From Sipunculus nudus (Eukaryota; Annelida; Sipuncula; Golfingiida; Sipunculidae): DNA of 64,000 nucleotides. The position numbers were made by a program, and so were the translations under genes. Positions 43,238 through 44,712 of the stretch are shown here, one piece after another. The stretch spans positions 37,337,558 through 37,401,557 of the forward strand of contig CM049310.1 of the NCBI GenBank assembly GCA_026874595.1. The letters are read 5' to 3'. Below the pieces are notes generated by a model that was given only the letters and a program-made list of their open reading frames with translations, was not told the origin of the DNA and searched no databases. Numbering within the stretch: the stretch's first letter is position 1; the number at the start of each line of letters is the position of its first letter.

Positions 43238-43728
43238 GTAAGTCTCTAAGCCTACAGCTATTATTTACATGATGGGATTTTTAATCGTGTTAATGGTTAG
43301 CAGACTTATGGCTCTTTTTTTATATTTTTGAATAAAAAAAATCCCTGAACTTAATGGAGGTTCCTGATTGCATGAACTACTTTAATGCAAGTACAAGTAC
43401 AGTACATGTAACAGTGAGTCTCAAGTACAAGTACATTAACTTGTCACAAGTTTAATGTTTTTGAAGTATCTGAAGACTTCACCGTAAACTCAGAGCCTAG
43501 AAATACGTCTTTGTGAATGATTCAATTAAATTACAGTGGGCACCAAATGTTTCTGAATCAACACACACTTCATTACAATGCTACTTGAAACATATTACAT
43601 ACAAAGAAACCTAGTTTAAAGAGCTGAAATTCTTTGTGGAAATGGCCACTTTCAATCGTAAGACCGGATGCTTAGTCTCAATTAACACATTCATTGGATT
43701 CACTTATTTCTATTTCAGGGCTACCAAA

Positions 43729-44712
43729 ATGGTGCGTATACAATTCCGAGCTGACATCATCGAGGCGCTTGATCTTAACATTGAAGTAACTAACGCCTTA
43801 CAAGACAGTGGTGTGATCTCCGGGGAACAAAGACAGCGCATCGGGCTTCAAAATCTGACTTCGAATCAGAAAAACGAAAAGTTTCTAGACATGCTGGAAA
43901 AAGGTACACAGAATACTCTGAAAGAAACGTGTCAAATTCTGACAAAATATAATCAGAATCATGTCAGCGGAATGCTAACATTGTCCATAGACCAAACTGG
44001 AGTAAATACCAGCATCCTAAGGCATTCCGAAGACGAACCAACTGGTTCCCATACACTCGGGCAGTCAGGTCAAGACCATCCGGATGCTATACCTACAGCG
44101 CCTTGGCCTGTTCCGGTGGAGCCAAGTTATAAGAACATACGCAAGTCTGTATGGGACTTGCCAGGATATAGATTTCCCGCACTGCTGTTACATTATATAA
44201 AATACCGAAATCTCGTCATGGGAACAACCGCCCAGGAAGTAAATAAATATTTACTCTCCAGATTTTATTCACTGAAAGAAGAAGAGCAGTATCCAAGACC
44301 TAAAGTCTCCAGCTTAGACGAAACTCTAAAATCATATGAGATGGTGTTCTCGTTAGACCTGAGCAAGGTCACTGAGCAACAAAGTCTTGATGACGTCATT
44401 AAGCAACAACACCCAAAACTAAAAAGTCTACGAGGTCTTTCACAGTTCATAGAGGAAAATCAGGAGAAAACAATGTTCCTCCTGGACGGGCTTGAAACTT
44501 TCCAACACTATCAACATGACATTATACGCCTGCTTCAGAGTGATTTGTTGCCAAAGGCAACCGTTGTTGCATCATTCAAGGGAAAACGTGTACCAGAAAA
44601 CATGTTGTGGCACGACCAGATAATTCAGTGTCCTGAGACAAACATGAGATGTCGATGTGAGCAGCCTGTGGCAAAGAAGTTCAAGCCCAGTTCATCAGAA
44701 ATATGTGTTTGA
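43729..44712 (+). CDS. CARD protein with partial, P-loop-degenerate NACHT-like module
   Basis: A single-exon frame of 327 residues from an ATG in good context (ACCAAAATGG). I start here because TTTCTATTTCAG (to 43718) is a convincing acceptor, making the earlier in-frame Met at 43636 intronic. Residues about 5-83 look like a CARD (DIIEALDLNIEVTNALQDSG, VISGEQRQRI, KFLDMLEKGTQNTLKETCQI), an adaptor fold for homotypic signalling in innate immunity and apoptosis. Residues about 160-285 resemble the first half of a NACHT NTPase: LVMGTTAQEVNK (162-173) where a GxxGxGKT P-loop should be, YEMVFSLDLSKV, a Walker-B-like FLLDGLETF (250-258), and LPKATVVASFKGKRV where sensor 1 (TSRP) sits. The chain ends soon after, with no winged-helix or LRR. 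ATP binding is probably lost. It could be an NLR-derived decoy or regulator, or a decayed gene, although the frame is intact. Confidence 0.75.
   Translation: MVRIQFRADIIEALDLNIEVTNALQDSGVISGEQRQRIGLQNLTSNQKNEKFLDMLEKGTQNTLKETCQILTKYNQNHVSGMLTLSIDQTGVNTSILRHSEDEPTGSHTLGQSGQDHPDAIPTAPWPVPVEPSYKNIRKSVWDLPGYRFPALLLHYIKYRNLVMGTTAQEVNKYLLSRFYSLKEEEQYPRPKVSSLDETLKSYEMVFSLDLSKVTEQQSLDDVIKQQHPKLKSLRGLSQFIEENQEKTMFLLDGLETFQHYQHDIIRLLQSDLLPKATVVASFKGKRVPENMLWHDQIIQCPETNMRCRCEQPVAKKFKPSSSEICV

Follow-up and report, generated by a model that had tools for sequence, protein, structure and literature searches.

A CARD protein with a P-loop-less NACHT core and its relatives in the genome of Sipunculus nudus

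The DNA considered here, referred to as the window, is a stretch of 64,000 nucleotides from Sipunculus nudus (GenBank assembly GCA_026874595.1, contig CM049310.1, positions 37,337,558 to 37,401,557, forward strand), and it contains an uninterrupted frame of 327 codons, from ATG to stop, for a protein that we call P0001. We found that P0001 joins a CARD-like N-terminus to a NACHT core without a P-loop, and that the same genome carries relatives on three other contigs, two of them intact and, as judged from their codons, under purifying selection. The reading to which we give about an even chance is that the gene belongs to a small family derived from NLRs, in which a CARD is combined with one or two P-loop-less NACHT cores and the protein stops short of the winged helix, HD2 and LRR parts; such proteins would offer a docking surface and act as limiters of CARD assemblies.

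The P0001 frame and its domains

An earlier note, made from the letters of the window, had described the frame as intact, and direct reading gave exactly the same limits, 43729-44712 on the forward strand. The frame stays open in the 5' direction as far as an ATG at 43642, which gives 356 residues in total. The longest ATG frame in 60 windows simulated by a Markov chain with the window's own composition was 218 residues (mean 127), and a chance frame was therefore rejected. A splice-acceptor-like site lies between the two ATGs, 10 bases ahead of 43729, and in P0002 and P0003, the two intact relatives described below, such a site likewise stands just 5' of the start. Because of this shared arrangement, 43729 is likely to be the start codon of P0001.

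Pfam placed a CARD at the N-terminus, at a score slightly below the curated cut-off, and a NACHT core further on, at a score above it (Table 1), so that both folds named in the earlier note were found by profile. The CARD is 36% identical over 81 residues to that of P0003. The NACHT alignment covers profile positions 34-133 of 167 and, since it starts at position 34, the P-loop part of the profile falls outside the match. A profile built on 13 NACHT cores from this genome gives P0001 74 bits, and Pfam, this in-genome profile and the fold match agree on the derivation from NLRs that had been proposed. The fold comparison of the P0001 core was a VIA-align second look and covers the families in its listing; a single-sequence fold of the whole protein had a mean predicted local distance difference test score (pLDDT) of 41 and was not used. 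Searches with P0001 gave no match in NCBIfam, a single row to an unrelated protein among the sequences of the PDB (E 1.1), and no relatives in viral contigs by tblastn.

A motif scan of the whole protein found no Walker A motif, GxxxxGK[ST], anywhere in P0001. The ruined P-loop of the earlier note thus stands as a loss; its proposed place, at LVMGTTAQEVNK from residue 162, is left uncertain by the alignments, since the profile alignment starts only near residue 193 and the positions given by two multiple alignments differ. An alignment that set ordinary P-loops opposite the CARD (A3) was not used. The Walker B and sensor-1 strands read as the note had quoted them. In the alignments, the position of the Walker B Asp is taken by Asp in P0001, by Lys in both intact relatives, P0002 and P0003, and by Thr in the relative on contig C9. 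The sensor-1 strand of P0001 has ASFKG where the aligned ordinary loci mostly have TSR or similar, and the Arg missing here is kept in P0002 and in the second module of P0003 (AYRG). Of the features expected of an NLR, P0001 thus shows the NACHT core fold, the Walker B Asp and an N-terminal signalling domain, and lacks the P-loop, the sensor-1 Arg and the winged helix, HD2 and LRR.

The stop at 44712 is present in the DNA directly after the core and a short basic tail, whose motif PVAKKFKP may resemble a monopartite nuclear-localisation signal. Pfam detected no winged helix, HD2 or LRR pieces in the forward frames of 33.7-43.7 kb and 44.7-64.0 kb, and a profile of the post-core part of eight ordinary NLRs, positive at four of four control loci, matched neither strand of the whole window and none of the 10-kb loci of the relatives on contigs C1, C4 and C9. 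Missed downstream NLR exons were rejected for lack of support, and the truncation described in the earlier note holds throughout the regions searched.

Relatives in the same genome and their conservation

We searched the genome (1.43 Gb in 153 contigs) with three proteins. The search with P0001, in which all 109 candidates were scored, returned 20 match rows, six of which correspond to the window itself or to two additional genes, P0002 on contig C4 (646 residues) and P0003 on contig C1 (723 residues). The searches with P0003 (29 rows; the best 62 of 278 candidates scored, so further family members were possibly missed) and with the half-NACHT of contig C9 (16 rows; 72 of 72 scored) contributed the C9 copy as well as a single CARD exon that is not part of the family. 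P0002 and P0003 follow one plan, namely a CARD, a long linker with a further common stretch, half-NACHT material, a basic tail and a stop. P0003 has two half-NACHT modules, and P0002 has the second together with a remnant of the first, the front half of which is missing. In Pfam, P0003 reaches 34.9 bits for CARD and 27.9 for NACHT, and P0002, at 22.4 and 24.4, is just under both cut-offs. A second helical region of P0003 and the matching region of P0002 are not called CARD by Pfam; in a comparison of seven sequences, that of P0002 weakly matches the CARD of the same protein (32% over 38 residues, E 0.002). In the C9 copy, CARD-like and half-NACHT pieces lie in different frames with a stop between them, the CARD being assigned solely by comparison with the other family CARDs and not by Pfam, and from its sequence we read this copy as a disrupted gene.

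The truncated end just after the core, followed by a short basic tail, is common to P0001 and its relatives, and none of P0001, P0002, P0003 and the C9 half-NACHT contains GxxxxGK[ST]. Among the other NACHT places matched by the three protein searches, the P-loop was present in 33 of 34, and in the remaining one (L049) a stop cuts the frame ahead of the P-loop region; this count strengthens the contrast between the family and ordinary NLRs. The best P-loop-bearing match was a NACHT on contig C15 for P0001 and the C9 copy and a locus on contig C17 for P0003, in the latter case among the best 62 of 278 candidates. In an unrooted tree with long end branches, a branch supported at 99/97 set the five half-modules of the family apart. 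Divergence within the family is considerable: P0001 shares 36-40% identity with the last half-NACHT of its relatives over 92-111 residues, 31% with the first half-NACHT of P0003 over 86 residues, and 30-36% with the relatives' CARDs.

For the pair P0002 and P0003, we estimated omega, the ratio of non-synonymous to synonymous substitution, by the Nei-Gojobori method, with ranges from codon resampling. Omega was 0.39 (0.31-0.49) over the whole 633 codons, 0.25 (0.12-0.52) for the CARD, 0.46 for the middle part, 0.35 (0.16-0.76) for the second half-NACHT and 0.23 (0.07-0.83) for the 31-codon tail. The lowest value, 0.17 (0.07-0.35), belongs to what remains of the first half-NACHT together with the segment behind it, and is confined to these because P0002 has no front half of that module. 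At the DNA level, the similarity of the two genes forms three blocks that run from about 70 bases 5' of the ATG through the stop codon, with none beyond. This codon comparison shows purifying selection on P0002 and P0003 in the CARD, the dead NACHT and the tail. P0001 is hence unlike a mere decayed copy of a gene with an intact GKT, in keeping with the earlier note: its nearest relatives also lack the P-loop, the same truncated end recurs on three other contigs, and the two intact relatives are constrained.

A regulator of CARD assemblies and the alternatives

Because two relatives in the same genome have been kept by selection, P0001 is probably not a defunct sensor but a functional regulator, as far as its sequence and theirs can tell, and we infer that it is most likely a nucleotide-independent regulator of CARDs. 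Given the losses at the P-loop, Walker B and sensor-1 in the family, P0001 would be unable to bind ATP, and the ATP-switched oligomerisation of NLRs would then be closed to it. A dead core that is constrained between relatives should still do something, and most simply it would be a fixed docking surface, most likely toward itself or toward intact NLRs of the same cell, while the CARD would plug into CARD assemblies. Since there is neither LRR nor switch, the net effect would most likely be to limit or cap such assemblies, like CARD-only decoys do. The missing P-loop and LRR switch together with the constrained dead core thus favour a CARD regulator, with a limiter as the more likely form.

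Several observations weigh against this reading. P0001 still keeps the Walker B Asp; the Pfam scores for the CARDs of P0001 and P0002 and for the NACHT of P0002 are slightly below cut-off; and the fold model of P0001 is confident in the core only (mean pLDDT 64). When the Walker-A columns were left out, support for the half-module branch was 93/93 and was not starred by the tree tool. Selection was measured between P0002 and P0003 only, P0001 being too distant: in the C-terminal part the proportion of synonymous differences between P0001 and its relatives is about 0.78, which is saturated, with a non-synonymous proportion of 0.48-0.50, and for its CARD omega is 0.42-0.50 at a synonymous distance of 1.6-1.8. 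Lastly, the C9 copy, one of four family loci, is disrupted, so decay does occur in the family. We nevertheless hold it very improbable that P0001 is itself just a piece of an ordinary NLR in decay, or that the gene has been read incompletely and its transcripts skip the stop. The break in the C9 copy between CARD and half-NACHT would fit decay, and a donor-like GTGAGC at 44657, if used, would bypass the stop and the last 17 residues; against this, all 327 codons of P0001 are still open, and the two intact relatives have the same end under purifying selection that includes the tail (Fisher p 0.014). The DNA similarity of P0002 and P0003 also stops at the stop codon, although unconstrained flanks would be hard to align at such a distance anyway, and neither the window nor the 10 kb fetched around each relative yielded an NLR-like downstream exon. 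Ordinary loci look different: of 13 fetched at 10 kb, eight continue from the P-loop in one frame for 650-906 residues and five are shorter, and an LRR was confirmed by Pfam in both of the two tested. A lone pseudogene was rejected as the principal explanation because the plan of P0001 recurs in the two intact relatives, both of them constrained by purifying selection.

If the limiter is set aside, the constrained module could serve other ends. One is an inactive-STAND receptor, in which the dead NACHT would bind a ligand without nucleotide switching and the CARD would relay the signal. A module retained for binding would agree with the second half-NACHT of P0003 and with the low omega, and the tails are basic in all three intact members (isoelectric point 9.1 in P0001, 10.4 in P0002 and 11.0 in P0003). 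Bacterial inactive STANDs, moreover, are described in systems with signalling domains, as the predicted invader-sensing part (PMC8195603). The dead cores, however, have neutral to acidic values of 5.0-7.1 (7.1 in P0001), which is unfavourable to nucleic-acid binding, and we consider this role unlikely. It would also be rather improbable that the proteins are positive adaptors or nucleators, whose half-NACHT would bind to itself and array the CARDs so that CARD filaments are seeded or amplified: the two half-NACHTs and second helical region of P0003, with the weak CARD-like match in P0002, would suit a multivalent scaffold, but P0001 carries one copy of each module only and Pfam finds no CARD in the second region of either relative. 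We retain the limiter of CARD assemblies as the favoured role. NLRs are understood as ATP-switched machines, and a switchless core under purifying selection points to a further task of that core, probably that of a surface for proteins or ligands. The family consists of short single-frame proteins, in which CARD and dead core can be separated for assay.

Wider repertoire and comparison with known systems

The features of the P0001 locus are collected in Table 1. Elsewhere in the window, at 665-1538 on the reverse strand, two overlapping frames read like what is presumably the end of a retroelement polyprotein; a tRNA scan found none.

Table 1. Features at the P0001 locus, in positions of the window
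Feature	Positions	Strand	Basis
Splice-acceptor-like site (pyrimidine-rich tract and AG; tatttcag, AG at 43717-43718)	43705..43718	+	read directly
Coding frame, 327 residues	43729..44712	+	direct reading and chance control
CARD, residues 8-84	43750..43980	+	Pfam PF00619, 5.5e-5, 23.5 bits (curated cut-off 23.9)
Linker, about residues 91-134	43999..44130	+	no Pfam match
Expected P-loop place, LVMGTTAQEVNKYLL	44212..44256	+	two multiple alignments, placement loose
NACHT nucleotide-binding core without P-loop, residues 203-288	44335..44592	+	Pfam, 6.1e-7, 29.9 bits (curated cut-off 26.7)
Walker B strand MFLLDGLETF, residues 249-258, first Asp kept	44473..44502	+	alignments
Sensor-1 strand TVVASFKG, residues 278-285, Arg missing	44560..44583	+	alignments
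Basic C-terminal tail, 22 residues, isoelectric point 9.1	44644..44709	+	tails of P0002 and P0003 likewise basic
Splice-donor-like GTGAGC near frame end	44657..44662	+	direct reading

The genome holds a large, clustered NLR expansion, with at least 99 NACHT match rows, about 55 of them (by eye) on contig C17. These counts are lower bounds, as the best 98 of 417 NACHT candidates and the best 150 of 650 CARD candidates were scored in Pfam; for the same reason the NACHT matches favour complete NACHTs and are no gauge of how rare loss of the P-loop is. On contig C15, between 49859 and 49871 kb, a CARD exon (L041) and a large NACHT-LRR exon (L011) lie on one strand about 11 kb apart, and we infer that they form one ordinary CARD-NACHT-LRR gene. 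The CARD exon outside the family (L032, C17:51253000-51262900) scored 40.1 bits and was the sole non-family CARD from the P0003 search, among the best 62 of 278 candidates; a 342-residue frame downstream of it has no Pfam match above cut-off. Many contigs also carry a dispersed CARD-gene repeat, in about 50 copies (counted by eye, and judged alike by equal scores and spacing, unaligned), with CARD frames of 230 and 275 residues on opposite strands about 3.4 kb apart and, in four copies, a 422-residue CARD frame nearby. Pieces were read at C5:36150400-36154900 (L038, L043, L039), C5:42531000-42532400 (L040) and C13:35404424-35407424 (L044), and the last of these holds four additional CARD-matching frames, of which one passes the Pfam cut-off and three fall short of it. 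The repeat resembles a mobile or viral element with a cargo of CARD proteins, and a 447-residue frame within it had no relative in viral contigs.

NLRs are established to assemble by NACHT oligomerisation and to signal through CARD-CARD contacts (PMC3775265), and NLRC-type proteins with CARD, NACHT and LRR have been reported from oyster, abalone and lingula (PMC11508797). P0001 shares with these the N-terminal CARD and a NACHT core homologous by profile and fold, and differs from them in lacking the P-loop, sensor-1 Arg, winged helix, HD2 and LRR; it also has CARD and NACHT in one frame, unlike the C15 gene with its separate exons. Amphioxus has CARD-NACHT proteins that, like P0001, are without LRR (PMC11508797), a likeness by description only, the P-loop state of the amphioxus proteins not being stated in the cited passages. 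COP, INCA and ICEBERG are lone CARDs close to caspase-1 and are said to be restricted to higher primates (PMC3775265). By analogy, P0001 may resemble them in its proposed mode, competition for CARD contacts, but it is not a lone CARD, being joined to a dead NACHT. Within titles and abstract openings, with subscription journals outside the scope, we found no description of an animal CARD protein with a P-loop-less NACHT.

In bacteria, iSTAND and iSTAND2 are inactive STAND modules of MoxR-vWA ternary systems that occur with signalling domains; a nucleic-acid ligand is proposed for iSTAND, and their describers know of no functional precedent among the well-studied STAND systems of eukaryotes (PMC8195603). 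Judged by its motifs, P0001 would be similar in that a STAND-class core with eroded nucleotide motifs sits in a signalling protein, and it differs from these bacterial modules in being an animal NACHT derived from NLRs. We tentatively raise the possibility, which we do not regard as probable, that in one animal lineage an NLR gave rise to a separate family of inactive STAND proteins, with a CARD and one or two nucleotide-dead NACHT cores as selected binding modules, acting as dedicated ATP-free receptors or as governors over a large NLR repertoire. Brakes or governors would be worth finding in a genome with at least 99 NACHT match rows, and, if this possibility is true, the family would be an animal counterpart of the bacterial inactive STANDs.
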